From Klebsiella electrica (GTDB lineage Bacteria > Pseudomonadota > Gammaproteobacteria > Enterobacterales > Enterobacteriaceae): a stretch of 64,000 nucleotides of DNA. Both the position numbers and the translations under genes were made by a program. Location of the stretch: contig NZ_CP041247.1 in the NCBI RefSeq assembly GCF_006711645.1, positions 4,092,001-4,156,000 of the forward strand. The letters run 5' to 3'. The notes beneath the pieces are model-generated. The model made no database searches, had not been told where the DNA came from, and worked only from the letters and a program-made list of their open reading frames with translations. Positions 15,369 to 30,891 of this stretch are shown here, piece after piece. Each line of letters opens with the position of its first letter. Positions within the stretch are counted from its first letter, which is position 1.

Positions 15369-15386
15369 TCGGCCCATGTTCAGAAG

Positions 15387-15413: not shown

Positions 15414-15415
15414 TT

Positions 15416-15661: not shown

Positions 15662-15781
15662 ATGGTCCGTAAACCAGCAGATAATGCCCCGTTCGGGTCG
15701 TTTAATGACCGTTTTCGCGACGCGTGTCTGAACGTTTACGGGTTCAAGTCACTGGCAGATGTGATACCGGGAATAGAGTGA
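15662..15781 (+). pseudogene. IS3-family transposase remnant (OrfB integrase core, C-terminal part)
   Basis: A 39-codon frame contains the stretch GSFNDRFRDACLNVYGFKSL, followed by ADVIPGIE and a stop. This closely resembles the ESFNGRFRDECLN...F.SLADA signature around the last catalytic Glu of IS3-family OrfB transposases. The catalytic Glu itself (ESFN) has become Gly. No inverted repeats or other transposase parts are visible, so this is a scar of an old insertion at the island edge. The family call rests on this motif alone. Confidence 0.6.
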
Positions 15782-15927
15782 GAGTATAGATAATGCTGGC
15801 AATAGATAAATACTCTCGATGAAGCATTCATATACTATTTGTCTGTTCACCGTAAACTTTCCGGCAAGGGATATATATCTTGTACCTGAGACTGGTATGT
15901 AATGCTTTTACATCGAGATAGACACTA

Positions 15928-16836
15928 ATGGATAAATCGATACCAAACCTACAGGATTTAATTTACTTTGTGATTACAGGGAGGTCATCAAGTATAACCG
16001 CAGCAAGTATTGAATCGGGTATTCCAGTTGCAACATTATCAAGAAGGATCTCAGCCCTGGAAAAAAGGGTTAATATCCAGCTATTCACCAGAACATCTCG
16101 AGGAATAGTTCTGACTGAAATTGGCAGACACTATCTTAAGTACGCGGATGCTATTATTAAAAACGCGACAGATCTGGAACGAGAGATGAAGGACTCACAC
16201 AATTCTCTTTCCGGGGTATTACGCGTTTCTTTACCGGTGGATTTTGGTATATATTTTATATCCCCGCTTATGAATAGATTTTCCACCTCCTATCCCAACA
16301 TCAGATTTATTTTCGACACCACCCCTGTCAAAGTCAATATCACTGAAAGGCAAATAGATATATGCATTCGCATCGGTGACATTAGTGATATGTCTCTTAT
16401 CGCCAGGCCTGTCGGTTTTCTATGTCGCAAACTATATGCCTCCCCTGCTTATCTGAGACAATATAAAACCCCTGAACATCCGGATGATCTTATTCACCAT
16501 CAATGCATTCTGCCTTCATACATGAAAGAGCCGGAAAAATGGGTTTTGTTCAGAGGAAATGATATTACCCGAATCAATGTCTCTGGCATTTACTCTGCAA
16601 ACAATATATCCATGATGCTAAAACTCTCGGAGAATAATGGCGGAATTGCTGTTTTGACGCCTGAAGTCATTCACCGAGAGCTGAGCTCCAGGGCTATCGT
16701 CCCCATTCTGGAAGAGTGGTCTTTTAAGCCTTTACCTGTATATATCATTACAGGAACCAGAAATATTTCAAAAAGCGCTCGTCTTTTCCTGGATTATATT
16801 AATAGCCAGCTTAGTGTAATCCTCAATAGTCACTGA
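15928..16836 (+). CDS. LysR-family transcriptional regulator
   Basis: The 302-residue protein has an N-terminal winged helix-turn-helix (residues about 8-65: LQDLIYFVITGRSSSITAAS, then ATLSRRISALEKRVNIQLFTRT) and a periplasmic-binding-like effector domain (about 90-295). It most resembles the GcvA/DsdC-like branch in general layout. Its DNA is clearly AT-richer than the backbone on either side, as is the adjoining recombinase gene, which points to acquisition. It converges on the recombinase, with 6 bp between stops. The target is unknown; the fimbrial genes are obvious candidates. Confidence 0.88.
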   Translation: MDKSIPNLQDLIYFVITGRSSSITAASIESGIPVATLSRRISALEKRVNIQLFTRTSRGIVLTEIGRHYLKYADAIIKNATDLEREMKDSHNSLSGVLRVSLPVDFGIYFISPLMNRFSTSYPNIRFIFDTTPVKVNITERQIDICIRIGDISDMSLIARPVGFLCRKLYASPAYLRQYKTPEHPDDLIHHQCILPSYMKEPEKWVLFRGNDITRINVSGIYSANNISMMLKLSENNGGIAVLTPEVIHRELSSRAIVPILEEWSFKPLPVYIITGTRNISKSARLFLDYINSQLSVILNSH

Positions 16837-16842
16837 GCCCTC

Positions 16843-17423
16843 TTACACAGCTATAGGGGGCGTGGTAGCACTCCCCCACAACCCGGTAAATCGATTAAAG
16901 TTGCTTTTAGTATAGAGTACCGTATGTCGAATATTCCGGTGCCCTAAATAATCCTGAATCAATCTGGTATCAGTTCCACGTTCAGCAAGTTTATATCCAC
17001 ATGAATGACGTAACATATGAGGATGAACTCTGAAACCTATGTTACTTTCAACGCCACATTTAGATATAATTTTCCAGGCCTGCGAACGCGAGATTGCTGC
17101 CCCTGAGGAAGTCGTAAATATGGCCTCAGATGTCACGCTGGTGGATGTCATTTTTTTCAAACTTAACCATTTACTTAAAGCATGACATTCATCTTCTGAC
17201 AACGGATGATATACTGAAAAACCATTTTTAAGTCTTTTTACATAAATAACTCCTGATTGTATATCAACATCCGCCATCGTGAGAGCAAGAAGTTCACTTA
17301 TTCTGAACCCATGGCGATATGCCATCAAAATCATACAGTAGTTCCTCTCTGCATTCATGCCCTTATTTGCAGAATCTAAAAGTAAGTTTATTTCATGCTC
17401 TGTGAGATATTTTCTTTTTTCAT
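16843..17423 (-). pseudogene. FimB/FimE-type tyrosine recombinase, frameshifted at codon 3
   Basis: From an internal ATG at 17358 the frame encodes 171 residues with the whole catalytic set: Arg in RHGFRISELL, HMLRH, LGHRNIRHTV and the Tyr in LYT. Upstream the homology continues in the same frame (KRKYLTEHEINLLLDSANKG), but that frame has no start codon. An ATG at 17423 followed by six A is in a different frame; seven A would join it to the gene. So either one A has been lost from the tract, or expression needs slippage. The internal start would drop about 22 residues. It lies at the opposite end of the fimbrial block from the intact recombinase. Confidence 0.75.
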
Positions 17424-17734
17424 ATTAATACCCGGCATTGATTTATTATTTTCTTAGTTCACTTCAAAATATAAGGGATTCTATTTTATGTAAGCAGCAA
17501 GGTAAGTAAATAGACATTATTGATAATAAGGATTCCATTTATGGAAACGTAATGACGACGAGACTACGACTCTCCCATTCGCGGCGTCTAGGCCATTGCC
17601 GTAATAACAGCGGGAGTGATCATCTATGTCTGCCCTCAGAGATAGCCAGCCACCGGCGCCAGCAGCCATCCCCGTCGCAATTTTTACCCGGATATTTATT
17701 TCCTGAGATTCCTTTCCCAGAACGATATGGCATC
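17424..17734. other. Intergenic region without recognisable gene
   Basis: About 310 bp between the frameshifted recombinase and the hha-like gene. The part nearest the recombinase is AT-rich. I looked for the switch repeat TTAGGACCA and did not find it. A plus-strand open frame (17552-17794) runs into the hha-like gene antisense and shows no family features. Confidence 0.5.
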
Positions 17735-17959
17735 TCAGCGCACATAGCGCCAGACATAAGACGGCACACGGTCAAAAAACTGCCCCGTGACTAACTCCGC
17801 CCGTCGGTGGTCGGCGGCCGATCGCAGGACCTCCCGCTGGCCCGACGGCAGTTTCTCTTCCATGTGTGCCACCACTAATTCCAGCGTTTCCTTACTGTGA
17901 ATACGCCGCAGTTTACGAACCAGCTCCATCCTGCCCGGTAATTCTGCCTTCTCTCTCAT
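17735..17959 (-). CDS. Hha/YmoA-family nucleoid modulator
   Basis: This small alpha-helical protein pairs with H-NS to silence acquired genes in enterics. The 74-residue chain shows the Hha signature throughout: LRRIHSKETLELVVAHMEEK, then SAADHRRAELV and PSYVWRYVR, corresponding to Hha LRRCQTIDTLERVI, SAADHRLAEL and PSSVWKFIR. It is the last gene of the tail following the fimbrial operon, 9 bp after a 39-residue membrane peptide, with GAGGT upstream. Carriage within a fimbrial island suggests it tunes silencing of that island. Confidence 0.88.
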   Translation of the reverse strand: MREKAELPGRMELVRKLRRIHSKETLELVVAHMEEKLPSGQREVLRSAADHRRAELVTGQFFDRVPSYVWRYVR

Positions 17960-17968
17960 ACGCTGACC

Positions 17969-18088
17969 TCACCCCCACAGCCGCCAGAAAAACCACACGG
18001 CAAAACCACACCACGCGCACCATATCGCCTTGTGCAGCAGCGCTAACCCCCATTCTGGAAAAGAGCCGGACTCATTTTCACTCTTCAC
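17969..18088 (-). CDS. Small membrane protein (39 aa)
   Basis: The frame begins with GTG at 18088 and has an AGGGGG ribosome-site-like run 6 bases upstream. The peptide has a polar head (KSENESGSFPEWG) and one Trp/Phe-rich membrane helix (AIWCAWCGFAVWFFWRLWG). The same frame is open further up to another GTG at 18205, but that extension is Cys-rich and covers another better-supported peptide. No family recognised. It lies between the 33-residue peptide and the hha-like gene. Confidence 0.5.
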   Translation of the reverse strand: MKSENESGSFPEWGLALLHKAIWCAWCGFAVWFFWRLWG

Positions 18089-18098
18089 CCCGGTCCCC

Positions 18099-18200
18099 CT
18101 ACAGCAACAACCGGTACAGTAAACATCCAACGCCATACCAGAACACCACGCAGAACATCGCGCACGCCAGCCACACTTTTCCCCTGAATGACAGTCCCAT
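18099..18200 (-). CDS. Small membrane protein (33 aa)
   Basis: ATG at 18200 is preceded by a strong AGGAGAGG site at good spacing. The peptide is one hydrophobic helix with a basic start (MGLSFRGKVW then LACAMFCVVFWYGVGCLLYR), ending TAG. It begins about 19 bp after the LuxR-type gene and ends 10 bp before the next peptide. The ribosome site and tight spacing are the main support; function unknown. Confidence 0.55.
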   Translation of the reverse strand: MGLSFRGKVWLACAMFCVVFWYGVGCLLYRLLL

Positions 18201-18219
18201 CCCACCTCTCCTCGCTCTT

Positions 18220-18951
18220 TTATCTTGTTCTTTCATCTTTGATCTTCTTTTTCAGATCCAGGATTTCATACCCGCAGCGGGGTCCCCCTGGTTTCTGCAT
18301 TTGCGCAATGCACCATGAAAACGTCATCTGCCGCCCCTGGTCTGACCGCTTCGACAGGTTTTGCCGGTAAGCCGCCACCGTCCTGTAACTGATATTCATC
18401 ACTTTCGCCGATGTCTTCAGTCCCAGACCGTCTGCCTGTGTCACCAGACACTCCAGCTCATGTGGCGTCAGATTCACCTCGCGGGTCAGCATCAGCCCCT
18501 CGGTCACGGCCGGACTCATGACGGTATCCGGCCACGCGCCCCCTGCCATCCGCAGAGCCTGCCGTAGTACGCCCAGCGATTCCTGGCGCAGAACCACGAC
18601 TGACGGACTGCGGTTCACGACCGCCTTCAGCAGAAGCGGGTCGGTCTGCGCCGTGCACACCATCACCCGACAGCGCCCCCCCTGGCACAGCCCCTGCAGT
18701 GCATCCAGCATCGCTATCCCTTCCTGCAGACTGCTCTGCTGATCCAGCAGTTCAGTGATAATCAGCACCCGGGCCTCCGGCTGACTGGCGCGCAACGCCA
18801 CCAGCCGTTCGTACAGGGCACTCAGACTGGGCAGCAGTTCGCTGCAGGGTCGTCCTGCCGCCTCGTCAGCCAGATCGCACAGCACCATTCCGGTCAGGGC
18901 CAGACTGTCCATCACCAGAGTCCGGTCAAAAGCCAGAAGAGGTTCAGGCAT
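18220..18951 (-). CDS. LuxR-type transcriptional regulator with degenerate receiver-like N-terminus
   Basis: The C-terminal part (about residues 165-225) is a LuxR helix-turn-helix: LTPHELECLVTQADGLGLKT, then ISYRTVAAYRQNLSKRS. The N-terminal 150 residues look like a response-regulator fold, but the usual phospho-accepting Asp segment is replaced by VLIITELLDQQ, so phosphorylation is unlikely. The start at 18951 overlaps the stop of the upstream 86-residue gene (ATGCCTGA) and has GGGGGA before it, implying translational coupling; an earlier in-frame ATG lies inside that gene. Regulators of similar layout (RcsA/MatA-like) control adhesins, so it may act on this fimbrial locus. Confidence 0.75.
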   Translation of the reverse strand: MPEPLLAFDRTLVMDSLALTGMVLCDLADEAAGRPCSELLPSLSALYERLVALRASQPEARVLIITELLDQQSSLQEGIAMLDALQGLCQGGRCRVMVCTAQTDPLLLKAVVNRSPSVVVLRQESLGVLRQALRMAGGAWPDTVMSPAVTEGLMLTREVNLTPHELECLVTQADGLGLKTSAKVMNISYRTVAAYRQNLSKRSDQGRQMTFSWCIAQMQKPGGPRCGYEILDLKKKIKDERTR

Positions 18952-19204
18952 GCCGTCCCCCATAGCCCGGTGGTTGCAGGGCATACCAGTCCAGCGGACT
19001 GTTTCCGTCCTTCGGATTAAGGGAATAGACCTGGTCCTGGGGGCCGGTACTGATCTGCACCAGAATGTGGCGGGCAGGCACCATGAACATCACCGTCAGC
19101 GGCCGGTCCGTACGCGGTGTCGGCCTGTTATACCCGCCCCCAGACTGGAGGATCGCCAGCAGTGGCAGCAAGAGAGGTATCAGCCAGATAAAAAAAGATC
19201 TCAT
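18944..19204 (-). CDS. Membrane-anchored protein of unknown function (86 aa)
   Basis: The N-terminus is a strong hydrophobic segment (FFIWLIPLLLPLLAILQ) that is either a signal peptide or an anchor. About 60 residues follow that should lie in the periplasm, with proline- and glycine-rich ends (PTPRTDRPLTVMFMVPARH, PPGYGG). I do not recognise a family. Its ATG overlaps the EAL-gene stop (ATGA) and its own stop overlaps the LuxR-gene start, so the three are coupled. It could pass an envelope signal to the LuxR protein, but that is a guess from position. Confidence 0.65.
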   Translation of the reverse strand: MRSFFIWLIPLLLPLLAILQSGGGYNRPTPRTDRPLTVMFMVPARHILVQISTGPQDQVYSLNPKDGNSPLDWYALQPPGYGGRHA

Positions 19205-20001
19205 CGGTTATGCTCCGTCAGTGAGGGCAGATGATCCGGCAGGTCGGCCAGCTGCGCCGCCGCCACCTCAGGCCACAGCCATCCCTGGCAGGCATCAAGT
19301 CCCGAGCAGGCCACAACCTCCAGCAGTTCCTGAGTCTCAACGCCCTCAGCGATAAGCTGTGCTCCCTGAGCACGCACAAGAGTGGCAAGTGAGCATAGAA
19401 ACGAGGGCCCCTCCGACAAGGCGGTCAGGTCCCGGAACAGGTGCCGGTCGAGCTTCACGCCCTCAAACACCCCGGACAACAGCCAGGTGAGTCCCGTGGT
19501 TCCAGCCCCAAAGTCATCCAGCCACAGCGGCGCCAGCGGCTGTAGGGCTGACAGAAGCGGGTCCTGCTCCGGCCGGTTATCCGGACTGAGGAAGCGTTCG
19601 CTGACCTCCAGGCGCAGCCAGGGCGCAAGCAGACTGGCCGACTCCGATACATCCGGATCGGCAAGGATCCGCAGAGCCAGAGTACGAGAGACATTAAGGC
19701 TGACCGACAGGCGTCGGGTGGCACACCAGGGGGCCAGCAGCGTCAGGACTTCAAGCTGCCAGACCAGGATGCGTCGTTGTTCCGTCAGGGGGATCTGGGC
19801 AAAAAACATCTCCGGGGAGGCCGCCACCCCGCTGTCACGATCGGCGATACGCGACAGCATCTCCAGGGCTATCAGGCTACCGTCAGGGGAAAAAATCGGT
19901 CCGAAGACCGGCGAAAGCTGCCAGACCCGGCCAAAGGCCGGAACGGTCAGCAGCAGTGATGACGTCACCATATCCGGTACCGGGATGCGGGTTATTACCA
20001 T
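19201..20001 (-). CDS. Stand-alone EAL-domain cyclic-di-GMP phosphodiesterase
   Basis: This 266-residue protein has no membrane segment and no GGDEF partner. All residues needed for phosphodiesterase activity appear present: E47 in EMLSR, N103 in SLNVS, E132 in LEVSER, the DDFG pair D162-D163, K183 in GVKLD, E219 and E222 in AEGVET, and Q239 in QGWLW. It should lower cyclic-di-GMP, the signal that promotes adhesion. FimK and MrkJ play comparable roles in other Klebsiella fimbrial operons. It starts about 210 bp after the beta-barrel gene, and its stop overlaps the next gene. Confidence 0.85.
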   Translation of the reverse strand: MVITRIPVPDMVTSSLLLTVPAFGRVWQLSPVFGPIFSPDGSLIALEMLSRIADRDSGVAASPEMFFAQIPLTEQRRILVWQLEVLTLLAPWCATRRLSVSLNVSRTLALRILADPDVSESASLLAPWLRLEVSERFLSPDNRPEQDPLLSALQPLAPLWLDDFGAGTTGLTWLLSGVFEGVKLDRHLFRDLTALSEGPSFLCSLATLVRAQGAQLIAEGVETQELLEVVACSGLDACQGWLWPEVAAAQLADLPDHLPSLTEHNR

Positions 20002-20211
20002 GTTGTTCTCTCCGCCGGTATTCTCCGGCGCTGGTGTATATACTGATATCAGCGATGTGGTCAGGTAGGGTTTCCCCCGGTGCCTGACCCGTTCTCTGGC
20101 TCCCTGGTGTGGCGCCGGAGAGATGGCGGTGACGGTTCCATCACCGCACTGTTGTTATTTTTTACGGCTCCGCTCTCCCGCCAGGAAAAATGAGACAGGA
20201 CAGCAGGAGCA

Positions 20212-20982
20212 TCAGAAGGTGTAGCGCAGGCCCAACTGAAGCGTGTGCAACTGAAGATGAGTGTGGCTTTTCCAGGTCGAGGTGATGATGCCGTTACTGG
20301 CCGTCCCCTCAGTGGTGACATCACCGGCGTTAGTGAACAGATATCCGGCATCAAGCGACAGAGCAGGCGTGAGAGCCCAGGCAACCCCGGCCCCCAAAGA
20401 CCAGGCCATCTGAGTGTTGTTCTGACTGAAGGTGTCAGAGCTAAAAGATAGCCCGGCAGACGACTGACTCAGCGAAGCGGCATTTTTCAGCAATGCCACA
20501 CCAACCCCGCCTGTGATATAGGGCGTGAATGGCGTCCCGGTGGTGTAATCGTAATAACCGTTCAGCATCAGTGTGCTGACCCGGGTCTTCTGTTGACGCT
20601 GTACTGATACGGGCAGGTTCTGAATGAATTTGCCACTATCGACCCAGCCACTGGTCATGGTAGTGTTCAGCGTGCTGTTCTGACTGACCTCTCCACCGGC
20701 AAGATATGCCAGTTCGAGGCGGACAGGCTGCTCCCAGTCGGTAGAAAACTCATACCCCATTGCAAAAGAAGGGGTAAAATTGGTTCTGTTGGCCGACGGA
20801 ACATCGATCTCCCCGACGGTATTATTCAGTCCCCCGGCCAGCATGGAGCTGGACAGAGTATTTTCCGTTGAGCGCACCTGCGTGGCCCCGGCTTTTGCAG
20901 CAACATAAAATCCGGATGCACTGGCCATTCCGGTATGCCCGGCCAGAATAACGGCAATCCCCAGTATTAATTTATTCATCAT
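20212..20982 (-). CDS. Outer-membrane beta-barrel protein (OmpA/opacity-like)
   Basis: A signal peptide (NKLILGIAVILAGHTGMASA) precedes a mature chain of about 235 residues. It has alternating hydrophobic strands, long Ser/Thr/Asn-rich loops and a C-terminal LGLRYTF, the sorting signal of outer-membrane barrels. Motifs such as PYITGGVGVALL and WSLGAGVAWALTPALSLDAGYLF are typical of eight-stranded opacity-type barrels, a group that includes adhesins and serum-resistance proteins. It follows the fimbrial adhesin gene on the same strand by about 200 AT-rich bases and may have its own promoter. The exact role cannot be told. Confidence 0.8.
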   Translation of the reverse strand: MMNKLILGIAVILAGHTGMASASGFYVAAKAGATQVRSTENTLSSSMLAGGLNNTVGEIDVPSANRTNFTPSFAMGYEFSTDWEQPVRLELAYLAGGEVSQNSTLNTTMTSGWVDSGKFIQNLPVSVQRQQKTRVSTLMLNGYYDYTTGTPFTPYITGGVGVALLKNAASLSQSSAGLSFSSDTFSQNNTQMAWSLGAGVAWALTPALSLDAGYLFTNAGDVTTEGTASNGIITSTWKSHTHLQLHTLQLGLRYTF

Positions 20983-21178
20983 TGAGTCCTCACAACCAGT
21001 TATTTCATTCCGTTCAGCATGCGGAGTCGGGGGTCGGTATTAAATTAATAACAACACAGACCATGACATAAAACCCCGTCAGAATAAGAATGCATTTAAA
21101 TTTTCTCATTAAACAGCTTTCAAAGAATGCACATTAAAAATGTGAAATATCATGATAATTTTAAGTTTTAAAAACGCA
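20983..21178. other. AT-rich spacer between adhesin and beta-barrel genes
   Basis: About 196 bp, strongly AT-rich next to the adhesin stop. It may hold a terminator or promoter, but I cannot point to a clear one. Confidence 0.35.
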
Positions 21179-22132
21179 TTACTGGTAAATAAATGTCACA
21201 CCAATAAGTGACTGCACATTACCAGCTATTACTTGCCCCCCGGTCAGGGCATAGTTTGCCTTTAACCCCAGGTCAACCGCAGATGCTCCGACAGTACCAA
21301 GGGATACATTACTGCCAGTAGAAAGCACCCCATTTGCATTGGAGATCTCTATTCCCACACCTTGAGCAGAAGACGAACTGGCTGTGTTTGAAAAAATATT
21401 ATTACCTGTATTCGCAACTGCACCTGAAATATAATAAGAAAGTTTCTGGCTTTGTAAACAACTAACAGTGAGAGGAACTGGTGTCATACTACCAGGATAA
21501 TCCGGCAAATTAACAATTACATTTCTGGATGAAACGTCACAACCACCAGTTGGCACGACTGTATTGTTATTTGCATATATATACCATGTCATAGAGGTAT
21601 TACCTGATGAATGACCAGCTCCACTCCCTGTGCTATAATATGCTTGCTTAAATAAATTTAACACAGTAATCAGATCACCCTGTTTAATTGACGTTCCGGA
21701 TACATTATTCCCGATCGGGGTTAAATACATCATTAGATTTAATGGTTGATACTGCCCCCAGGTATATTGAAAATAAGATGTGGGCGAAGAAAGTGGAAGA
21801 TTATATGAAGTACCATAGTAACTCAATGTGCCATGAAATGAATTCAAAACACCAGAATATGACGAACCTGCCTCAATTCTTGCATAATCCCAGAAGTTAG
21901 CTGGATCGTCATTTCTGCAACTTATACTATCCCCAAGATTAACAACCAAAACCTGACCAGATGATAATTGAGGCGACAGGTTAACATATACGTTAGCCGA
22001 TCCCCCACCATCATATATAGGCCCTGCCGATGTCATACAGGAAAATGCAAAGGTTTTCGCACTTAAAATAAATAAAAATATAAAAAAAAATAATTTCGAG
22101 CTTAATGTGATGTTTTTTATCAAATTCAACAT
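21179..22132 (-). CDS. FimH-like tip adhesin with altered binding pocket
   Basis: A long signal peptide ends TFA, giving a mature N-terminus F-S-C as in FimH. The lectin domain (GGGSANVYVNLSP, ISCRNDDPANFWDY) and pilin domain (VVPTGGCDVSSRNVIVNLPDYP, ending IGVTFIYQ) follow FimH in order. Of the FimH mannose-pocket residues, F1, N46, D47, D54 and Q133 have counterparts (precursor F30, N74, D75, D82 and the Q of FKQAYY). Y48 of the tyrosine gate is Asp76, N135 aligns with Tyr, and the D140 region is rebuilt as a Gly/Ser-rich loop. The gene is far more AT-rich than the pilus genes beside it. Last structural gene of the operon, with AGAGGTGG upstream. Confidence 0.85.
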   Translation of the reverse strand: MLNLIKNITLSSKLFFFIFLFILSAKTFAFSCMTSAGPIYDGGGSANVYVNLSPQLSSGQVLVVNLGDSISCRNDDPANFWDYARIEAGSSYSGVLNSFHGTLSYYGTSYNLPLSSPTSYFQYTWGQYQPLNLMMYLTPIGNNVSGTSIKQGDLITVLNLFKQAYYSTGSGAGHSSGNTSMTWYIYANNNTVVPTGGCDVSSRNVIVNLPDYPGSMTPVPLTVSCLQSQKLSYYISGAVANTGNNIFSNTASSSSAQGVGIEISNANGVLSTGSNVSLGTVGASAVDLGLKANYALTGGQVIAGNVQSLIGVTFIYQ

Positions 22133-22148
22133 TTATTCCACCTCTTCT

Positions 22149-22670
22149 TCAGGAATATGTATAGGTAACATTAACCACAGCCTGAATACTCCCCTGCGTG
22201 GCATTCCCGTTCACCGTAATCGCCCGTACCTGCAGCGGAAAACTCACTGTCTGCGCCGGATAGCTTACGGCCAGCTGCTTTGTCGCCCCATTCGGCAGGT
22301 TGGTTCCGGCATTGTCCGCCAGCTGCAGAGCGATGCTTCCCGCCCCGCCCTGGTTGGCATAGTAAAGTCCGGAGCTGTCCGCCGTCCCGCTGAACGTCGC
22401 TTTCACCTGCGAAGTCCCAACCGGACAGTTCGTCAGATCCAGACTGACCGACTGCCAGCCCGACGTCGAACCGGCAGAAACCAGATCAAAGGTAAATAAA
22501 TTTCCCAGATCCACCGTGGTGGACGTCGTCGATACCGTACACGGCCGGGCCACCACCTTTCCGTTCACAGTAATGGTCACGTCGGCAGCCCGGGCCGGCA
22601 CACCGCTGGCCAGCAGCAGGGCCGCCCCCAACAGACCACACCACCGGGATGCCGTTAAATTGTTCTTCAT
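22149..22670 (-). CDS. FimG-like minor fimbrial subunit
   Basis: A tip-fibrillum pilin of 173 residues with a signal peptide ending ARA, then ADVTITVNGKVVARPCTVS, the donor-strand and first-cysteine region of FimG. It ends in the penultimate-Tyr pattern VNVTYTYS, typical of chaperone-recognised pilins. The start at 22670 has GAGGAG upstream and lies 10 bp after the FimF-like gene. It should link the adhesin to the shaft. Confidence 0.85.
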   Translation of the reverse strand: MKNNLTASRWCGLLGAALLLASGVPARAADVTITVNGKVVARPCTVSTTSTTVDLGNLFTFDLVSAGSTSGWQSVSLDLTNCPVGTSQVKATFSGTADSSGLYYANQGGAGSIALQLADNAGTNLPNGATKQLAVSYPAQTVSFPLQVRAITVNGNATQGSIQAVVNVTYTYS

Positions 22671-22680
22671 CTGCCGCTCC

Positions 22681-23217
22681 TCACTGAAACTCCAGTGTAA
22701 AATTTGCCGTTGCACTGACCGCACCGGCCACCACCGACGTCTGCGTTGCCATCATCCGGGCATAAAAACTCAGCGTGTTGGCCTGCCCTCCGCTCAGCGC
22801 CGACCAGTTCAGGTTCTGGGAGCTGGCGTTAATCGCCAGCGGATTTTTACCCGCATCCAGTATCTGGATCCCCAGTCCCGCCGCCGCCCCGCTGCCGCCA
22901 TCAATTTTCAGCAGGGTCGCGTTATCCGGGTCCGCCGTCCCCGTAAACCCCACCTTCACCCCCGTGGCCGCCGCCCCGCAGGGTGACAGGGTGATACTGA
23001 ACGGTACCGGGTACCAGGTGGTCTCTCCGGGTTTAAATAGCTGCTTCGCAGAGTTCGTCATCAGGTCCACGGTCTGATTCTGGGAGCCTGCAGCAACGCG
23101 GCACATGTTGTCCCGGACATAACCGGTAATGGTGATGGTGCTGTCAGCCGCCTGCACCGGCAGCCCGACGGTAATGGGGGACAGCAGCATCAGCGCCATT
23201 ACTGTTCTTTTCATCAT
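22681..23217 (-). CDS. FimF-like minor fimbrial subunit
   Basis: A 178-residue pilin with a signal peptide ([23 protein letters not shown]) and mature start [19 protein letters not shown] as in FimF. It ends NFTLEFQ. The start at 23217 was chosen for its GAGGAG site; codons upstream are in frame but overlap the usher. It is expected at the tip, between shaft and FimG-like subunit. Confidence 0.85.
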
Positions 23218-23228
23218 TGATCTGCTCC

Positions 23229-25841
23229 TCACCGGCATTCCGCCGTGACATCACTCAGGGCCTGTTTCTGACTGTCCGCCGGCAGTTTGTAAGCGACATG
23301 GCACTGCCCGTCTGCACTGTCATTCCATTTCGCCGTCAGCGTTCCCTCCTGCGCCAGCCCTGTCAGGTACACCTGTCCGCCATCCGCCACGATGCTGCTG
23401 TTCTTCCCGTCCTCCGTGGACACCAGCGCACCAAACGGTACCGGTTTCCCGTTATGCATCAGCGTCATCAGCACCTTCATCCCCACCCGCGCCGTGAATT
23501 CCGCCCGCACTATCGCCCCGTGCGTCGGTACCACATTCGCCACGGCATCATCCAGGTCCACATTATCCGGCAGCGTGTTCGTATTCAGCGCAATCCGGTT
23601 CTCGCGATAATCCGAGGCATATGGCAGAACGGCATACCCCCGCCAGTCCGTTTTCACCCCGGACTGATTCTCCAGCGCCACATTCCCCGCCCCCGGCGCC
23701 TTCACCAGCACGGCGGTATCGTTCAGCGGCTGACTCAGCGTCACACCATCTGCGTGCGCCAACACCCCGCCACTCAGGCCATAGTAGAGCTGGTTAAAGC
23801 CGCTGCCCCGGCTGAAGCCCACATTACTGTTCGCCGACGCCCCGCGGTAACTTAGCGACGCTGACCCGGTACTGCCGCTGCTGCCGGCATTTCCCCCGCT
23901 CGCATACCCGCTCTGTACGCTGTAGCTCAGGTTGTTCCCCTCCAGCAGGGTGCCGTAAATCCCGGCCTGGTTGGTCATTCCACCTTTCAGGTCATCCGTC
24001 ATGCTGTAACTGGCACTGGCGTTACGGAAGACAGACCGGCTGTCAGAACGCATCCACAGACTGAACGGCACGTTCACGTTCAGCGACAGCGTCTGGTCGT
24101 AGCCCCCGTTCATCTGCCAGGCATACTTCGACACCCCGTAGCCCAGTGTGTAGTTCACCCCGTAGACATCGCCGCTGTAGCCCGCCTGCAGTTGCACATC
24201 GTTACGGTCCGTCGCCCAGTAACTCTGGTGACTTCCGGTCAGATACAAGGTTGCCGTACGTCCCACCTGTTGGGACAGCGTCAGCTGTAACCGCCCGCGT
24301 TTGTTGTAGCGCAGATTGTAATAATCGGTATATTTCGGCACTACCTGGATGGCCTGATCCTCAGTAACCACCGTATACCCGCTCATCCGGTTGTACGCCG
24401 TATCTGCCAGGGTAAAATACCCCTGGGTCGAATACCGGTAACCAACCAGCTGAATGTTGGTGCCCAGCTCAGTCAGCGACTTGCTGTACAGGAAACGCAG
24501 GGACTGCCCCTGGCGGGAGCTGTCATCCGGGAGTGTGGCATTCGCCTGCGTGATATCCGCTGACACGGCCCCGAACACCCCCATGTTCTTACCCACGCCC
24601 AGGTTAAATGCCCGGTAGTTATCCGATAACTGAGTGCCGCCATATGCCGTCCAGCCATCATTCAACCCCCACAGTACTGTCCCCTGAGCGAAAGTCGGTG
24701 TGTCCTGCTGCTGATTACCGCTGCGGAACTGTCCCACCGTGGCGGCGTATTTAACCCGTCCTTCACGCTGCAGGACCGGCACAGAAGACCACGGCACGCT
24801 GAACACCTGCGTGGAGCCATTGGCTTCCTGCACGGTCACCTGCAAATCACCGCTGTTCCCCGCCGCATAAAGATCACCGATAGTGAACGGACCCGGCGGT
24901 ACGGTGGTCTGGTAAATCTCATACCCGTTTTGTTTAATGCTGACCCGCGCCGTTCCCCTGGCGACACCATGAATAACCGGGGCGAACCCCCGCAGGCTGT
25001 CTGCCAGCATGTTATCGTCTGAAGCTATCTGCACACCGCGGAAGTTCAGCCCATCGAAAACATCTCCCGGGGTGTAGCTGTCCCCGAGCGTCAGCCGCGA
25101 GCGCCAGGACGCAATGTCACGCTCGGCATAAGTGTTCACATGCGTCCATTTATTCTGCGCCCCGGTGTTGCCACCGCTGCTGTAATTCCAGGTACTGTTG
25201 TCGCGAAACCGCCAGGCCCCAAGATTGAAACCACCATCCAGGCTCAGGTAGGCATAGTTGCTGTTTGTCCCCTGTGAGGTCACCGTGTTGCCATTGAAGC
25301 TGTAATTCAGCAGGGCGGCATTAATCCCGTTATCCCACAGTTCAGGCGGTACGGCGCCCCGCGCGCTGGCGGACATAAATGTCTGGGGAACGCTGACATA
25401 CAACCGTTGCCGGCCGACATCAAAGCGTGTCGATGCATCCGCTATCAGCGTCGTCAGCGGTACACAGGCATCCGCAGCCAGGGCAGCTATCCCCGGAACC
25501 GCCGCCGTTTTCACCCCCATCGCCATTATCTGGCCCCGCGTCAGGCACGGCTCCAGGTGGCCGCCTTTCGCCGGTGCGCTGAACGTCACATCCCGGGTAG
25601 TGAAGTAACCGTCATTGATGTAGATATCCACCCGGTAACGTCCCGGTGGAGCCTCCAGTCCTTTTTCAAATGCCGACAGGTCAGCCACCGCCGACGGGTC
25701 ATCAGACAGAAAGCGTGGGTTAAAATAACTGTCAGCGCGGACAGGCTCACAGCCTGCAGCCATCATCATCAGCACCAGAGGCGCTATCAGAAAACGAGGG
25801 GATCTCCCCGTCACTCCTGCGATTCTTCGTTGTTTTTTCAT
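23229..25841 (-). CDS. FimD-like outer-membrane usher
   Basis: The usher recruits chaperone-subunit complexes and secretes the growing pilus. With the start at 25841 ([10 protein letters not shown]) it has 870 residues, against about 878 for FimD. The order is visible: signal peptide ending VRA; N-terminal periplasmic domain ([20 protein letters not shown]); large 24-stranded barrel (ISTD-like [31 protein letters not shown]); and C-terminal domains with the paired cysteines near the end. A start 13 codons upstream (25880) is possible. Its stop lies 11 bp before the next gene. Confidence 0.9.
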
Positions 25842-25902
25842 TCTTTCGCCCTGCGTACCTGCTGACTGTGTAGAATTCATCTTTCATGCCGGCCGGACCG
25901 TC

Positions 25903-26592
25903 TTACTGCATGATGCCCCGGGTCTTCGGCGTCAGCGCACCGTAATCATTAATGGTCTGGAATGTGATGTCCTGCCCGGCATCCGCCGGCAGCTTCACCG
26001 TACTCTCCCCTTTCGGGGCGACCATGGTGTTTCCCAGGATGCGTGTGCCTGCATTCAACTGAACCACTGTCAGAAAATAGGGAGTGGGGTTGATCACCGT
26101 CAGCACGCCCGCACTGCGGCGAAAGCGTAGCTGTTCCCATGCTTTATCCGGTGCGGGGTTCAGCCCCAGCGGCCGGTAAAACAGCTTGATACGGCTGGTG
26201 ATAGCCAGTTGCAGGGTGTTAGCTTTCATCTGGCTTTTGTCCACAGATGGAATGGCTTTAACGTTGACCCAGAACAGGCTTTCCCGATCCGCAGGCAGAC
26301 TGTGGTTTGTCGCGTCAATAATCCGCAGGGTGTTCTCTTTTTTACCCTGCATCACGAACAGGGGTGGCGTTATCACAAACCGACCATCTTTCTTCCCGTC
26401 ACTGTTTTCCACCCATGACTGGATGAGAAAGGTGTTGCGGTCATCACTGTTGTTCACCCCCAGAGAAACCTGCTTCTGGTCTGCCTGATAAATCACCCGT
26501 GTTGCGCCCAACGCTACACCAGCCTGCGCCTGTGCCGAAACGGCCACCATCAGAGCGGCTGCGACTCCTGCCACTGTCCTGCGTATTGTCAT
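25903..26592 (-). CDS. FimC-like periplasmic pilus chaperone
   Basis: A 229-residue immunoglobulin-fold chaperone with signal peptide ending AQA. Subunit-binding features are present: GVALGATRVIYQADQKQVSL with the conserved Arg of the cleft, FLIQSWVEN, the G1 strand NTLQLAITSRIKLFYRP with the second cleft Lys, and NPTPYFLTVVQLN. The frame is open 26 codons further up, but the start at 26592 gives the proper signal peptide. Lies between the FimI-like pilin and the usher. Confidence 0.9.
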   Translation of the reverse strand: MTIRRTVAGVAAALMVAVSAQAQAGVALGATRVIYQADQKQVSLGVNNSDDRNTFLIQSWVENSDGKKDGRFVITPPLFVMQGKKENTLRIIDATNHSLPADRESLFWVNVKAIPSVDKSQMKANTLQLAITSRIKLFYRPLGLNPAPDKAWEQLRFRRSAGVLTVINPTPYFLTVVQLNAGTRILGNTMVAPKGESTVKLPADAGQDITFQTINDYGALTPKTRGIMQ

Positions 26593-26677
26593 TGTGATGT
26601 TCTCGTCCTGCTCTTTTAATCCGGACAGGCGGCGGCCCGAGCCATCCCCTGCGCCACTCACCGGTATCACCGGTCAT

Positions 26678-27232
26678 TTATTCATATGTGAGATAAAACC
26701 ATGCCTGGGCATTCGCCTGACCGCCGGTTACGACCCGCCCCGTCGCCCGGTATTTCGCCACCAGGTCAAGCGTCACGGGTCCCGCCTGTAGTTTCTGCCG
26801 GGTTGTTGGCACCGGACTGTTGACGGGAATAAGCACCCCCTGACGATCAAACAGCGCCACCCCCACGTTGGTGGCAATCCCCGGCCCCTCTCCGATGGAA
26901 AGCACATCCGGCTGTTTGCCATCACCCACGCCACGAAACTGAATAGCCACATAGCGGCTGACGTTCGTATTACAATTCAACAGCTGAATATGAAAAGGGA
27001 CCGGATCAGTATCCTCACCAACCCGATGAAAACGGTTGCTGCTGACCTGTCCCATTGAAACCGTCAAAGTCCGGTCACCGGCCTGTACCTCGCAAGCGTC
27101 AGCAATGACTTCCCCCTGAAAACGCATCTGCCCACCAGGCAGATAAACATGCCAGCCTCTGGACATGGCGGTGGAAGAAGCCAGCAGTAACAGCAGTGCC
27201 ATTCCGGCACTGTTTCGTAGCTTTAGCATCAT
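26678..27232 (-). CDS. FimI-like fimbrial subunit
   Basis: A 184-residue pilin with signal peptide ([20 protein letters not shown]), the conserved first-cysteine region [21 protein letters not shown] and the ending QAWFYLTYE. Its place between the major subunit and chaperone corresponds to FimI, thought to anchor or terminate the pilus base. Confidence 0.8.
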
Positions 27233-27295
27233 TCACTCCCCCGACGAGTTGCGAAACGGGCACTCCCTTGCCCGGCATATTTTTCGCTGGATAAA

Positions 27296-27844
27296 TTACT
27301 GGTACTGCACTTTGAAGTTTGCCTGGCCGTTGGCGTTACCTGCCGTCGCCGCGCCGGTCGCATAGTACTGGGCTTCAAACGGAATAAGGTTAGTGCCGGT
27401 GCTCAGCGTGGTGGTCGCGCTGAAGGTGTTACCGTCCAGCCCCAGAGCAGCGCCGGTACGGTCAAGGATCTGGATACCTACGTTGGTGGCATTACCCGCT
27501 GCAGAGCTGTCCAGCGACAGTACCGTCGGGTTGGCGCTGTTAATGGCCACGCCGCTGAAGCCGACGGATGCCAGAGTGGAAACAGTAAGGTCGCAGTCAT
27601 CCAGTTGGATATTGAACGGAACTTTGGAGCTGGTTTTACCGGCTGAGCCCAGAGTGCTGGATTTAACCTGTCCCATCTGGACGGTCTGGTTCACGGAGTT
27701 AGCGTCCACGGCACAGGCAGCGTTTACCACCGAACCAGTGAAGTGCACAGTACCGCCATTGACGATGTTTGTAGCCGCCTGCGCAGAAACTCCGGCGAAA
27801 GAAAGGGATGCCATCAGAGCGGAGAGCGCAATAATTTTTTTCAT
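27296..27844 (-). CDS. FimA-like major fimbrial subunit
   Basis: The 182-residue shaft pilin is very like FimA: signal peptide ending AQA, then [49 protein letters not shown] and the end ANFKVQYQ. The two pilin cysteines are present. First structural gene, 165 bp from the edge of the invertible segment, so its transcription should depend on switch orientation. A strong start context follows the leader at 27850. Confidence 0.92.
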
Positions 27845-28002
27845 ACTGTTTTCCTTGATTAAATTAACGTTTCATGAACATGAAATGCGTGACGGTCGCA
27901 CTTCGTCCTGACAGCCTGTCAGAGTCCCCCGGACTTTTTTCGCAGCCCGTTTTACCCCTTCAGCTGGACCGCCATATTCCGTTCAGTTTTCACCCAACAA
28001 TG

Positions 28003-28026
28003 AAACAGTTAGGACCAAACTGTTTA
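28003..28026. repeat. Left inverted repeat (recombination site) of the switch
   Basis: The 15-bp core TTAGGACCAAACTGT (28009-28023) is extended by matching flanks to 24 bp with two mismatches against the right repeat. Within the site AAACAGTT (28003-28010) and AACTGTTT (28018-28025) are themselves inverted around a 7-bp spacer, the layout of paired tyrosine-recombinase half-sites. Confidence 0.85.
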
Positions 28027-28328
28027 CTGTTATTCCATGCTAAGGAATAGAAAAATTTAAAAATTAAATACTATTAAAAAGATAAAAATTTATTATTTAA
28101 GGAATAAAATGCTGACAAAATGGAATGAAATGGAAATGGACGGAGGTGCGATGATTTAAAGTCCGGAAAAACATGGCGAGATGTGGCTGAAATGTAAGGT
28201 CTGTGTAAATTCAGTGGAAATTTAATTTGTTAACATTCATATAGTTAAAGTTAGTTTCTGAAGAAATACTGAAATGACTATTGCAAAATTTTACAGTTCA
28301 ATCCAGACTGTAGACAGTTTGGTCCTAA
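28009..28328. promoter_or_regulatory. Invertible phase-switch element upstream of the fimA-like gene
   Basis: A 320-bp AT-rich non-coding segment is bounded by exact 15-bp inverted repeats (28009-28023 and 28314-28328). Their first nine bases, TTAGGACCA, differ at two positions from the E. coli fimS repeat TTGGGGCCA, and the segment is close to the 314 bp of fimS. It lies between an intact FimB/E-type recombinase and the major pilin gene. A weak promoter pointing at the pilin (TTGTCA at 28118-28113, 17 bp, TAATAA at 28095-28090, minus strand) hints that the sequenced orientation is ON, but I cannot be sure. Confidence 0.85.
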
Positions 28329-28334
28329 TTGTTT
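28311..28334. repeat. Right inverted repeat (recombination site) of the switch
   Basis: ACAGTTTGGTCCTAA (28314-28328) is the exact reverse complement of the left core, and the flanks match except at two bases. It lies 38 bp beyond the 3' end of the recombinase gene. Confidence 0.85.
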
Positions 28335-28366
28335 ACACCTCGCCTTTTTTTTATACGAAATATCAA

Positions 28367-28972
28367 TCACTTATTCCTCCTTTTTTTCTTGTGTAAATCA
28401 ATGTCAAGACGGTTTTCTCGCTCCCATAATCCGGTAAAACGCGCAGCATTGCTGGCCGTATAGCGGACCGTGTGGCGTATATTTCTGTGCCCGAGATAGT
28501 CCTGAATCAGCCGGGTATCAGTGCCCCGCTCTGCCAGTTCGTAACCACAGGCATGTCGCAGCATATGCGGGTGAGTGGCGGTATTCAGCCCGCTACGCTC
28601 GCCGCTATTGCGGACAATGCGCCACGCCTGCTGGCGCGACAGCGGCGTTCCACGAGTGGAGATAAACACGATTTCCGGCAGGATCGGCTTCTGCCAGGTC
28701 TCCCTGACCCGCATCCAGGCCTCCAGAGCCCGTCGTTCATCGGGCATCAGCGGGTGAACAGTGGAAAAGCCTTGTTTGAGGCGGCTCACGATAATGCGAC
28801 CTCCCTGCAGATCAAGATCCCGGAACCGTAGTCCAAGAAGTTCACTGATGCGCAGACCATGACGGAAGGCCAGCAGTATAAGGCAGCAATCGCGGGCACC
28901 GGTTTGCCCGCCGGAGACGGCCTGCATCATGTGGCTGACTTCACGCCAGGTTAGAAATTTACGTTTGCTCAT
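28367..28972 (-). CDS. FimB/FimE-family tyrosine recombinase of the fimbrial switch
   Basis: This 201-residue protein is the size of FimB/FimE, with an intact catalytic set: R41 (HGLRISEL), H136-R139 (HPHMLRH), H162 (LGHRNIRH) and nucleophile Y171. It is transcribed towards the switch and ends 38 bp before the right repeat, as fimE does in E. coli, so inversion could change the 3' end of its own mRNA. The KpcI recombinase of Klebsiella is a known parallel. It ends in a lysine/arginine-rich tail (KKKRRNK). Confidence 0.92.
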   Translation of the reverse strand: MSKRKFLTWREVSHMMQAVSGGQTGARDCCLILLAFRHGLRISELLGLRFRDLDLQGGRIIVSRLKQGFSTVHPLMPDERRALEAWMRVRETWQKPILPEIVFISTRGTPLSRQQAWRIVRNSGERSGLNTATHPHMLRHACGYELAERGTDTRLIQDYLGHRNIRHTVRYTASNAARFTGLWERENRLDIDLHKKKRRNK

Positions 28973-29381
28973 GGAGCACCTCCGTGACGGTCGCTGACCG
29001 TCAGATAAAAAACATTAATAAAAACATGGAAATATCCATTCTGATACTGGACGGGGCGCATAATACACCAGACGGCGTATTTTTCAGGAAAGTATCCAGG
29101 CGCGGAGAACGGGTCAATGACCAGGACAGAAGAAAGGTCAGGCAGCAGGAGAAATTAGTCAGTAAAATGCTATTCCGTTTATTCAAGTATTTCGAACAAT
29201 GCTCCCCAGGGACAAGCAAACTTGATACGCCCCCTTAAGGAGCGAATTTTTCTCTCCATGTCATGTCAATCCTGGCTTTTTCCAGGAGGTATTTTTGAGC
29301 GTTTCCGGTGTGAGATGAAATGCACTGAAATCCCGCGATGCTATTAACCGCATCCGGTCTGAGCATCTGCCCCTGAAATAC
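28973..29381. other. Intergenic region beyond recombinase
   Basis: About 410 bp holding the recombinase promoter region. A plus-strand frame (28984-29238, 84 codons) and a minus-strand frame (29235-29456, 73 codons) are open, but neither shows a family motif or strong ribosome site. I leave them uncalled. Confidence 0.4.
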
Positions 29382-29412
29382 AAAACGCCTGATGATATTC
29401 ATCAGGCGTTTT
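29382..29412. terminator. Strong bidirectional hairpin
   Basis: AAAACGCCTGATGA (29382-29395) and TCATCAGGCGTTTT (29399-29412) are perfect inverted copies with a 3-base loop; A and T runs at both ends allow termination in both directions. It probably marks the right end of the fimbrial module. Confidence 0.8.
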
Positions 29413-29478
29413 ACAGGCAGAAAACTGTCAACCGATATCAGGACTAGCCACGGCAAAAATTAACATCAACACGGAAAT

Positions 29479-29634
29479 ATGTACGCCAGGTACGGGACCG
29501 TGAAGGCGCCGTTCTCCGCCGATAACGGTCACGATATTAACGATCCGCGCAAAGTTATCCGGCAAGGCTTGCTGCCCGTGCGCGAGATGGTCGCCCGCCG
29601 GATCCCGCTATTTGGCTCTCAGAACCGGGGCTAA
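29479..29634 (+). CDS. Short open frame of unknown function (51 aa), possibly a gene remnant
   Basis: ATG at 29479 opens 51 codons with a backbone-like composition (KAPFSADNGHDINDPRKV, then IRQGLLPVREMVARRIPLFG). It looks like true coding sequence, perhaps the C-terminal end of a larger protein cut by the island junction. A hairpin follows at 29675. No family recognised. Confidence 0.3.
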   Translation: MYARYGTVKAPFSADNGHDINDPRKVIRQGLLPVREMVARRIPLFGSQNRG

Positions 29635-29674
29635 GCCCGGCATATCGTTGATGCGTCATCAGATGGTCGCGCTA

Positions 29675-29707
29675 CGCACTCCCCCGGAGTCTCGCCGGGG
29701 GAGTGCG
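29675..29707. terminator. GC-rich hairpin between remnants
   Basis: CGCACTCCCCCGG (29675-29687) pairs perfectly with CCGGGGGAGTGCG (29695-29707). No T-run follows. It sits between the 51-codon frame and the amidohydrolase remnant and could be a relic terminator. Confidence 0.5.
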
Positions 29708-29722
29708 CTAACCTGTCAGAGG

Positions 29723-30891
29723 CTAAAACGCGAAGCAGGAGCAGCCCATCACGCCCCGGAACGCCTGCTCGTCCGACACCGGCAGCGACGACTGACGGGC
29801 AATATCATGCTGATGACCGTGCACGCCGCAGCTGCCGCAGCACTGGTGCATCTGGGCTATCGCCCCGACTTTCGCCGCCGCAGTGTCCCCAGTCCCACCG
29901 GCACCTCCAGCGCCAGCATTTTCGCCACCGGTGGCGTATGCTTAAGCGCCTCTTTGCCATAGCGATCGACAAAATATTCGCCCTGGAAAGCCATTCGGTG
30001 CTGCACCGCGATACCGCCGCCGAGCGCCTTCACGCGCACAATATTCCGCTCGGTAATGGTCTCCGCATGGTCAAAGAACCAGTGCAGGCCGTTAAACGGA
30101 ATATCGCGGTTCACCTTCTCAAAAACATCCAGCATCCGGCTGATGGATTCATCATAGGTGGCATGCAGGTGCTCATCTTCCATCCCTTCCGGCAGGTCAG
30201 GGCGCGATTGCAGGAAATCTTCAAAATCCGCCGCCGGGAAGACCAGCATTTCACCAGCGCCGTTGGCGCGGAAAAAGTCGGTCCCCTGCCCCGGTTTCAG
30301 CATATCGGTCCAGCGTTCGAAATCATCCAGCTCCTGTTTTGGCCGCTGGGTAAACAGGTTATAGGCAATACGCACGGTCATCTGCTGTTGCGCATGCAGC
30401 TGTTCAATAATTTCATAATCTTTCGGATAGTTCTGGAAACCACCCCCGGCATCAATCGCGCTGGTAAGGCCAAGCCGGTTCAGCTCACGCATAAACTGGC
30501 GCGTCGAATTGACCTGCTGCTCCAGCGGCAGTTTCGGCCCTTTCGCCAGGGTCGCGTAGAGGATCATCGCGTTAGGTTTAGCGATCAGCATCCCGGTGGG
30601 GTTACCGCGGCCATCGCGCACCCACTGCGGAGACGGCGTGCGATCGGCCTGATCTTTCAGCGTCCACAGCGCGTCCGCCAGCGACGGAACCCCCTCACAG
30701 CTCAGCTCGAGATTATAATTCAGCCCGCCGCGGATCAGGTGCAGGTGGGAATCGTTGAGACCGGGGATCACCATATGGCCTTGCAGATCGACTATCTGCG
30801 TCCCCTGGGCAGCAAAACTCATGATCCGATCGCTGCTGCCGGTAGCGAGGATCTTGCCGTAGGCGATCGGCCTCATTGAGCAACGCCGCAA
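29723..30891 (-). pseudogene. YtcJ-like amidohydrolase, multiply deleted
   Basis: A long frame (30891-29857) carries recognisable amidohydrolase parts: GKILATGSSDRI, the metal motif in PGLNDSHLHLIRGG, GNPTGMLIAKPNAMIL, and the His segments HWFFDHAE and GGGIAVQHRMAFQG. The usual stretch between QWVR and GNPTG is missing (join near 30618). After VPVGLGT the frame breaks, and a second frame resumes with a Cys/His-rich tail (QMHQCCGSCGVHGHQHD ... GCSCFAF, stop at 29723). From memory that tail matches the ends of full-length relatives. The N-terminus is also short. The gene is therefore dead and lies between the fimbrial island and malZ. Confidence 0.75.

Follow-up and report, generated by a model that had tools for sequence, protein, structure and literature searches.

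About 14 kb of a Klebsiella electrica genome (positions 15,420–29,449 of the window, by which we mean the whole 64,000-nucleotide stretch analysed, positions 4,092,001 to 4,156,000 of contig NZ_CP041247.1) is a fimbrial island in which a type 1-like fim operon, preceded by a putative invertible switch, is followed by genes for an EAL-domain protein and other putative regulators. In minus-strand order it contains a FimB-type invertase gene, an AT-rich region with inverted repeats, fimA-I-C-D-F-G-H, and genes for a β-barrel protein, the EAL protein, an 86-amino-acid (aa) protein that we call P86, a LuxR-type regulator, two tiny open reading frames (ORFs), an Hha protein and a FimE-type invertase (Table 1). 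All of the named genes are open at these places and those assigned to named families match them, so the gene set originally predicted to follow A-I-C-D-F-G-H stands. The island is best read as three blocks, the fim operon, the barrel gene and a six-gene tail that begins with the EAL gene.

The island was acquired horizontally, since the insert is absent from the same site in all four of the sister genomes opened (the genus sample is 20 genomes, including the 5.79 Mb host genome, G000, in whose main contig the window lies). The left flank (to 15413–15418) runs straight into the right flank (from about 29720) in G018 and G004, and in the two closest sisters, G011 and G017, a putative phosphotransferase system (PTS)/sugar operon, its genes judged by eye, lies between 15412–15419 and 29450. 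A DNA search with window positions 14000–31000 found the flanks in the genus; among the matches listed, the middle matched only 65–72% identical fim-type DNA at other places in other genomes, and none of the 19 other genus representatives gave a near-identical island. No tRNA gene was found within the window, comparison of two island edges gave no direct repeat of 10 bp or more, and a search of E. coli genomes with 17700–21000 gave no match.

Table 1. Features of the island, with window positions and the evidence for each assignment
Feature	Position	Strand	Evidence or remark
LysR-family regulator	15928..16836	+	HTH_1 and LysR_substrate over cut-off; inside the island
FimE/FimB-type invertase lacking its N-terminus	16843..17358	-	NF007371 match from profile position 25
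Hha/YmoA-family protein, 74 aa	17735..17959	-	PF05321 8e-15
39-aa ORF (hypothetical)	17969..18088	-	GTG start; possible membrane helix
45-aa ORF (hypothetical)	18099..18236	-	One predicted membrane helix; hydropathy maximum 2.06
LuxR-type regulator	18220..18951	-	GerE 6.1e-6; start chosen at 18951, frame open to 18984
P86, 86 aa	18944..19204	-	N-terminal hydrophobic helix and VYSLxP motif
EAL-domain protein, 266 aa	19201..20001	-	PF00563 2.2e-24; EAL domain alone
Outer-membrane β-barrel (OMP_b-brl), 256 aa	20212..20982	-	PF13505 3.3e-11
FimH-like tip adhesin	21179..22132	-	PF09160 (FimH mannose-binding domain) 2.7e-35
FimG-like minor pilin	22149..22670	-	PF00419 2.8e-13; matches host fim locus
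FimF-like minor pilin	22681..23238	-	PF00419 3.5e-26; matches host fim locus
FimD usher	23229..25880	-	NF011740 1067.4 bits (cut-off 995)
FimC-like chaperone	25903..26670	-	PapD_N 4e-41
FimI-like pilin	26678..27232	-	PF00419 3.6e-27; best match of the gene after fimA in L141–L144
FimA major pilin	27296..27844	-	NF011741 151.6 bits (cut-off 140); PF00419
Putative invertible element	28003..28334	.	Inverted repeats 28003–28030 / 28307–28334
FimB/FimE-type tyrosine DNA invertase, 201 aa	28367..28972	-	NCBIfam NF007371 323.7 bits (cut-off 222)

The fimbrial genes are of the type 1 (fim) chaperone-usher kind: FimA and FimD pass their curated models and the order is A-I-C-D-F-G-H, and the FimC-like chaperone matches NF011742 at 1.2e-81, yet its 273 bits fall under the curated cut-off of 327. 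The fimH gene has a guanine plus cytosine (GC) content of 38.7% versus 54–60% in the adjoining fim genes and the barrel gene, and in an alignment the lectin-domain loop of its product is unlike that of the host FimH; it possibly represents an exchanged tip adhesin with another receptor. The FimE-type gene at the far end of the island scores 218.5 bits, just under the NF007371 cut-off of 222, and its ORF starts at the first start codon past an upstream stop, so it is probably defective; intact relatives exist, for example at 3109–3675 of plasmid locus L134.

Between the FimB-type gene and fimA lies an AT-rich region of 522 bp (35% GC) that holds inverted repeats of 28 nt, 89% complementary and including a perfect 15-bp core, TTAGGACCAAACTGT, with the arms 290 bp apart; by a rough hand estimate about 1e-4 such pairs would be expected by chance in 522 bp. 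Switches of the fimS type have a FimB-type recombinase gene and, upstream of fimA, inverted repeats spaced by about 300 bp, an arrangement that the island shares. The available part of a review gives the E. coli fimS half-site as TTGGGGCCA (PMC9820224). The stretch between an invertase gene and the first pilin gene contains repeats of this sequence, 288–307 bp apart, both in the fim locus resident in the host and in four of the six plasmid loci tested (L134, L135, L137 and L140), and none were found in L142 and L143, searched with exact 9-base seeds. The island half-site is TTAGGACCA in both arms, and it differs from the E. coli one at two positions, alike in each arm; that both arms carry the same change argues for a working repeat. 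The L137 half-site runs on with AACTGTT, as does that of the window. We predict that the element inverts, which would make it a fimS-type switch with an altered half-site, and its specificity is likely distinct from that of the resident fim switch. Promoter motifs were also tried as a guide to switch orientation and gave no clear match on either strand.

The EAL protein was aligned with the best 34 of 137 database matches (alignment A1). Residues E47, N103, E132, E135, D162, D163, K183 and E219 do not vary among the 35 rows, and D185 and Q239 hardly vary. We take these to be the catalytic residues of EAL phosphodiesterases, and since the set is complete the island protein is predicted to degrade cyclic di-GMP (c-di-GMP), in line with the original view of it as apparently active. 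In a tree of 55 sequences it falls in a 37-row clade (support 100/100) with the plasmid EAL proteins of loci L134, L135, L137, L138 and L139; outside this clade are the host MrkJ, the host FimK-type EAL, nine sequences labelled PdeH-type, L009 and L140. A copy of MrkJ or FimK was considered and rejected, as the island EAL is in neither group, in a tree with long branches whose deep joins are unsure. At least 96 of 392 family genomes match it at 1e-40, with the host at 9e-117 and the next at 1.1e-47, and among 394 order genomes the host's own is alone in passing 1e-55; 6–12 candidates were scored per genome in the surveys for EAL, LuxR and P86, so that all such counts are lower bounds. An Enterobacter soli species genome holds an outlier EAL (L007).

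On plasmids, EAL matches were found in nine records at ten places, nine of them at 39% identity or more (the tenth, H15, at 29%, was set aside unopened). In each of the nine a fimbrial gene is no more than about 1.2 kb away, and an usher is visible in eight; the ninth record, L165, begins before the usher, and only the first fimbrial gene is visible there. Three pairs of loci (L135/L136, L138/L165 and L140/L164) encode identical EAL proteins, which leaves six distinct ones. By comparison, an usher lies within 10 kb at two of 77 lower-scoring EAL loci, as sought with one FimD query that remote ushers may escape; three of the 80 control loci were set aside as high-scoring EALs, namely L007 and L009 (usher) and L008 (no usher; ends within the gene). 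The difference (6/6 versus 2/77) gives a p of 7e-8, to be read with the fact that the six are related and so not phylogenetically independent, and that the cases are plasmids and the controls species genomes. The EAL gene stands either after or before the fimbrial genes, and the fimbriae differ. In six of the nine places (L134–L138 and L165, about 12.8–13.4 kb) a conserved 61-aa ORF (MNELNDVITKRIERC...) follows shortly after the EAL gene; the one scanned has no Pfam or NCBIfam match. The plasmids that carry these six loci are blaIMI carbapenemase plasmids by name or annotation. In L137 a 2076-aa surface protein with immunoglobulin-like domains (13718–19948) is encoded downstream of EAL-P86.

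P86 has no Pfam or NCBIfam match. Its family was seeded by aligning the window protein with small ORFs that follow plasmid EAL genes, and the resulting profile, A3, which included the window copy and one outlier chosen by eye, found 17 database proteins at an E value of 0.01. The 14 rows of alignment A4 (from which P0135, P0136, P0144 and P0145, near-copies or fragments, were omitted) share the motif V-Y-S-L-x-P and an N-terminal hydrophobic stretch, both of which the window P86 has. A leave-out model of 12 rows, retrained without the window copy and its near-copy though it keeps members gathered with A3, recovers the window P86 at 7.4e-8, against 0.069 for the next of 465 window ORFs and 2.7 for the best of 500 shuffles, and when the members of the E. 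soli type or those of the Kosakonia type are left out instead, these too are recovered. Six of the nine plasmid places have P86 after the EAL gene: the two genes overlap in L134–L137, and in L140 and L164 one gene, CaiF/GrlA-like (5.4e-4, under the cut-off), lies between them. Beyond these six, the 24 loci scanned have it in L007 alone, with the same E. soli sequence, and it is present in at least one of the 392 family genomes. We propose that P86 is anchored in the membrane and acts as a partner of the EAL gene; in a structure model with a mean predicted local distance difference test score (pLDDT) of 56 the N-terminal helix alone is usable. Elsewhere, in Kosakonia radicincitans, database names give neighbouring locus tags to relatives of P86 (A3780_20355) and of the LuxR-type regulator (A3780_20340). 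The E. soli plasmid pENTAS01 carries two copies of the order invertase-fim-EAL-CaiF/GrlA-like-P86-LuxR-like (L140 and L164), identical in the stretch from EAL to LuxR.

Barrel relatives were found in 24 plasmid records, and the four at 38% identity or more (L141, L142, L143 and L182) all lie directly after a fim operon; the other 20, which include PagN, are about 32% identical or less. L141 and L142 also carry, within 2 kb of the barrel gene, an EAL gene of about 510 aa, which in L141 is on the opposite strand. Among 246 family genomes nine, the host's own included, match the barrel at 1e-20. It may be a second adhesin instead of a sensor, and the envelope sensing first suggested for the locus found no support.

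The LuxR-type profile matches RcsB at 1.5e-5 over 170 positions, and in all seven rows of its alignment A5 (which omits the window's own P0001 and also P0003 and P0009, which look frameshifted) there is a glutamate at the position that we take to be that of the RcsB phospho-acceptor aspartate; the aspartate of NarL/FixJ response regulators is absent. The RcsB match and this glutamate point to an RcsB-like pseudo-receiver regulator. Its relatives at 1e-15 or better are in at least five of the 392 family genomes, its own included. In two of these loci, L122 and L123, the relative is near a giant autotransporter gene, a LysR-type helix-turn-helix (HTH) fragment and a full-length EAL gene of about 520 aa, apparently an adhesin-regulator-phosphodiesterase cluster of another kind; in L124 and L125 the part read contains neither giant autotransporter nor EAL. 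A plasmid relative, L006, belongs to a fimbrial locus of the Afa type whose EAL is a different one. The LuxR-type genes scanned in L134 and L135 pass the GerE cut-off, and the LuxR-like ORF of pENTAS01 is 36% identical to the host FimK-type protein over 55 residues. Identification of the island regulator with MrkI was rejected (weak similarity in the HTH region, 87 columns, probability 49%), and a derivation from the N-terminus of FimK was unsupported (probability 0.5%).

Of the two tiny ORFs, which had been put forward as membrane proteins, the second has as its simplest start a GTG that gives 39 aa (78 aa from an earlier GTG). The 45-aa ORF differs from a Klebsiella variicola plasmid remnant by two silent and 11 replacement codon changes, so that the one comparison possible gives no sign of purifying selection, and we do not retain the pair as conserved proteins. 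Remnants of the LuxR end and the two ORFs are present as two degraded copies on that plasmid (L001, 6479–6937 and 15043–15343), one of them just upstream of a pilin gene. As to Hha, no fimbriae were found at the two high-ranked places opened (H45 and H47, of the 10 listed best).

At the island edge, on the opposite strand, the LysR gene has a GC content of 40.6%, and its closest model is YafC, far under cut-off. Beyond the island, an amidohydrolase-like gene (29857–30891) is a 344-aa ORF in the window versus 622 aa in L178–L180, relative to which about 400 bp are missing near 29884.

Fimbrial operons associated with EAL genes are a known theme, of which FimK, Fim2K, MrkJ/MrkI and STM0551 are examples; the following comparisons rest on the available portions of the articles cited. 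That Klebsiella fimbrial operons may end with an EAL gene, as first noted, is borne out by FimK and MrkJ (PMC9487511, PMC5023117). With the resident Klebsiella-type fim locus of the host (L144), where the EAL gene directly follows fimH, the island shares an EAL gene 3' of fimH, a pair of FimB/FimE-type genes and repeats of the fimS type. In K. pneumoniae, FimK combines an HTH with an EAL domain (PMC9487511), and L144 has a 497-aa gene of this type; unlike it, the island protein is EAL-only and the LuxR is a separate gene, and the island adds the barrel, P86, the tiny ORFs and Hha, the two EALs standing apart in the tree (on long branches). Fim2 is a second fim-like operon on the 14.0-kb island KpGI-5, with a stand-alone EAL gene (Fim2K) without an HTH and other putative regulators (PMC3419637). 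The island resembles it, by description, in being an island-borne fim operon with a stand-alone EAL gene. For fim2 the text reports no fimB/fimE homologues and no fimS switch, and neither a barrel nor an Hha or LuxR protein appears in its Table 1 (PMC3419637); unlike it, the island has both an invertase and repeats.

In the mrkHIJ cluster an EAL phosphodiesterase and a LuxR-type regulator adjoin a chaperone-usher operon (PMC5023117, PMC9487511), as they do in the island. The host has this cluster at L162 (MrkH match 5.7e-41, with MrkI- and MrkJ-type genes). Unlike it, the island proteins scanned include no PilZ match, MrkJ is outside the EAL clade and MrkI is weakly similar to the LuxR. The Salmonella fim regulatory cluster has a stand-alone EAL phosphodiesterase, STM0551, with FimZ, FimY and FimW (PMC3487979); set side by side by description, the island EAL is likewise stand-alone beside type 1 fimbriae, although the regulators differ and the available text mentions no invertible switch for the Salmonella cluster (PMC3487979). 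Also close are the Enterobacter-type plasmid loci (L134–L140, L164 and L165, most of them blaIMI), which have the same EAL subfamily or the E. soli outlier, P86 in six, invertases with fimS-type repeats in L134, L135, L137 and L140, and LuxR-type genes in L134–L136; unlike the island, those scanned have no barrel match and a 61-aa ORF or CaiF/GrlA-like gene in place of Hha. That the original prediction did not recognise the combination is reasonable for this exact set of genes, although its kind is known. We found no article title describing an EAL-P86-LuxR module, in a search that mostly did not take in the subscription literature, and the terms EAL, c-di-GMP, Hha and LuxR are absent from the main text of the review PMC9820224. 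Three of the new points are the strongest: the P86 family, the joint recurrence on plasmids of switch, fimbria and EAL gene, and the altered switch repeat.

Our preferred reading, which we hold with confidence only a little better than even, is a type 1-like fimbrial island with a fimS-type switch and a 3' control module centred on a phosphodiesterase, in which c-di-GMP removal would be linked to the making of the fimbriae and so render adhesins exclusive. We infer each functional step. By homology, the FimB-type invertase would flip the element upstream of fimA. The tail would be expressed by readthrough or from a promoter of its own, and the EAL enzyme would then degrade c-di-GMP. The lower level would reduce c-di-GMP-dependent output such as the host's MrkH-dependent type 3 fimbriae, and the island adhesin would be made in place of the resident ones. 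The LuxR-type pseudo-receiver would be the DNA-binding arm, probably acting on the island's own promoters without phosphorylation; P86 would be the small membrane-anchored partner of the EAL gene, and Hha may tune H-NS silencing of the AT-rich switch.

The tail had been described as mostly overlapping, which is true of EAL/P86 (4 nt), P86/LuxR (8 nt) and LuxR/45-aa ORF (17 nt), but the 39-aa ORF starts 10 nt after the 45-aa ORF and Hha 9 nt after the 39-aa ORF, and the barrel gene is separated by 196 nt from fimH and by 210 nt from the EAL gene. Several observations weigh against the preferred reading. Barrel and EAL each have a leader of about 200 nt. Promoter-like sites are at chance (12 versus 9.5 expected) and terminator-like sites above it (19 versus 10.6 expected); one of the latter, at 21212–21195 on the minus strand, is at the end of fimH and speaks against free readthrough into the barrel gene (the EAL gene contains two more, and another is close to where the 39-aa ORF ends). 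The relatives of the tail genes also recur unevenly: EAL, P86 and barrel relatives recur beside fimbrial operons, as do the switch repeats, but P86 has no match in three of the nine plasmid EAL places, the other four genomic LuxR relatives, all in other genera, have no usher in the 20-kb stretches fetched, and the LuxR-like ORF of pENTAS01 is below the Pfam GerE cut-off (0.21). Hha, originally counted as a specific part, matches at least 5000 plasmid records; it is generic and, unlike EAL, P86 and the close barrel relatives, occurs mostly away from fimbriae. On the whole, the refuting test first proposed, whether the tail genes are found mainly apart from fimbrial genes, comes out in favour of the original prediction. 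Finally, the host has 17 EAL genes, the FimK-type gene and that of mrkHIJ included, so one more may make little net difference to c-di-GMP.

The terminator-like site at the end of fimH weakens the linked-control reading and strengthens another, that the tail is regulated independently and is a passenger in a mobile region rich in fimbriae, tied to them by shared transfer and not by function. We think this unlikely, though it deserves serious weight: the two leaders of 196 and 210 nt fit it, as do the mosaic GC content (fimH 38.7%, FimE-type gene 40.1% and LysR 40.6%, against 50.7–62.9% across the EAL-to-Hha tail), the variation in tail order and content among plasmids and the K. variicola tail remnants, which lack an EAL gene. 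Shared transfer sits less easily with a linkage that recurs with six distinct EALs, different fimbriae and either order of EAL and fimbrial genes, when control EAL loci are so rarely beside an usher.

It is distinctly improbable that the EAL protein is mainly a protein-binding adaptor like YdiV or STM1697, acting for example on FlhDC so that the tail represses motility while fimbriae are made. Its profile is indeed closest to the solved structures of YdiV/CdgR (1.4e-26) and STM1697 (2.1e-26), which we take to be non-catalytic and which rank above the next EAL domains (1.2e-21), a point that also counts against the enzymatic reading, and motility repressors at fimbrial operon ends, such as MrpJ and PapX, are a known theme. 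Those proteins are degenerate, however, and the island catalytic set is intact: the acidic residues lost by YdiV, in which LDDFG reads LGNLG, are invariant in 35 of 35 EAL rows. To much the same low degree we credit the view that the island is decaying and largely silent, with a defective FimE-type gene, a fimH that may have been exchanged, a switch that is maybe locked and a vestigial tail. The FimE-type match that begins at profile position 25 and the failure to find a near-identical island among the genus matches listed agree with decay, but the FimB-type gene, the repeats and the other ORFs are open, and near-identical P86 copies occur on further contigs (P0136, for example, is 99% identical and on six contigs).

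A bolder extension of the linked-control reading, speculative and on balance doubtful, is that such loci form a mobile family of adhesin cassettes, each complete in itself, whose invertible promoter, fimbriae and c-di-GMP-erasing module are transferred as a unit. P86 would represent a family of small proteins without known counterpart, membrane-anchored and gating the EAL enzyme, and altered half-sites would insulate the element from the resident fim switch, giving two independent fim-type switches per cell, of which the acquired one would silence c-di-GMP-dependent rivals when on.

Klebsiella-type genomes carry several fimbrial systems, and this raises the question of how a cell avoids making all of them at once. 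If the reading preferred here is true, a switchable fimbria acquired along with a c-di-GMP phosphodiesterase of its own would be a simple route to mutually exclusive adhesins, and P86, found with one EAL subfamily and the E. soli outlier, is a candidate local regulator of c-di-GMP enzymes. The related loci are on plasmids, mostly conjugative blaIMI carbapenemase plasmids, so that the module can move between species.

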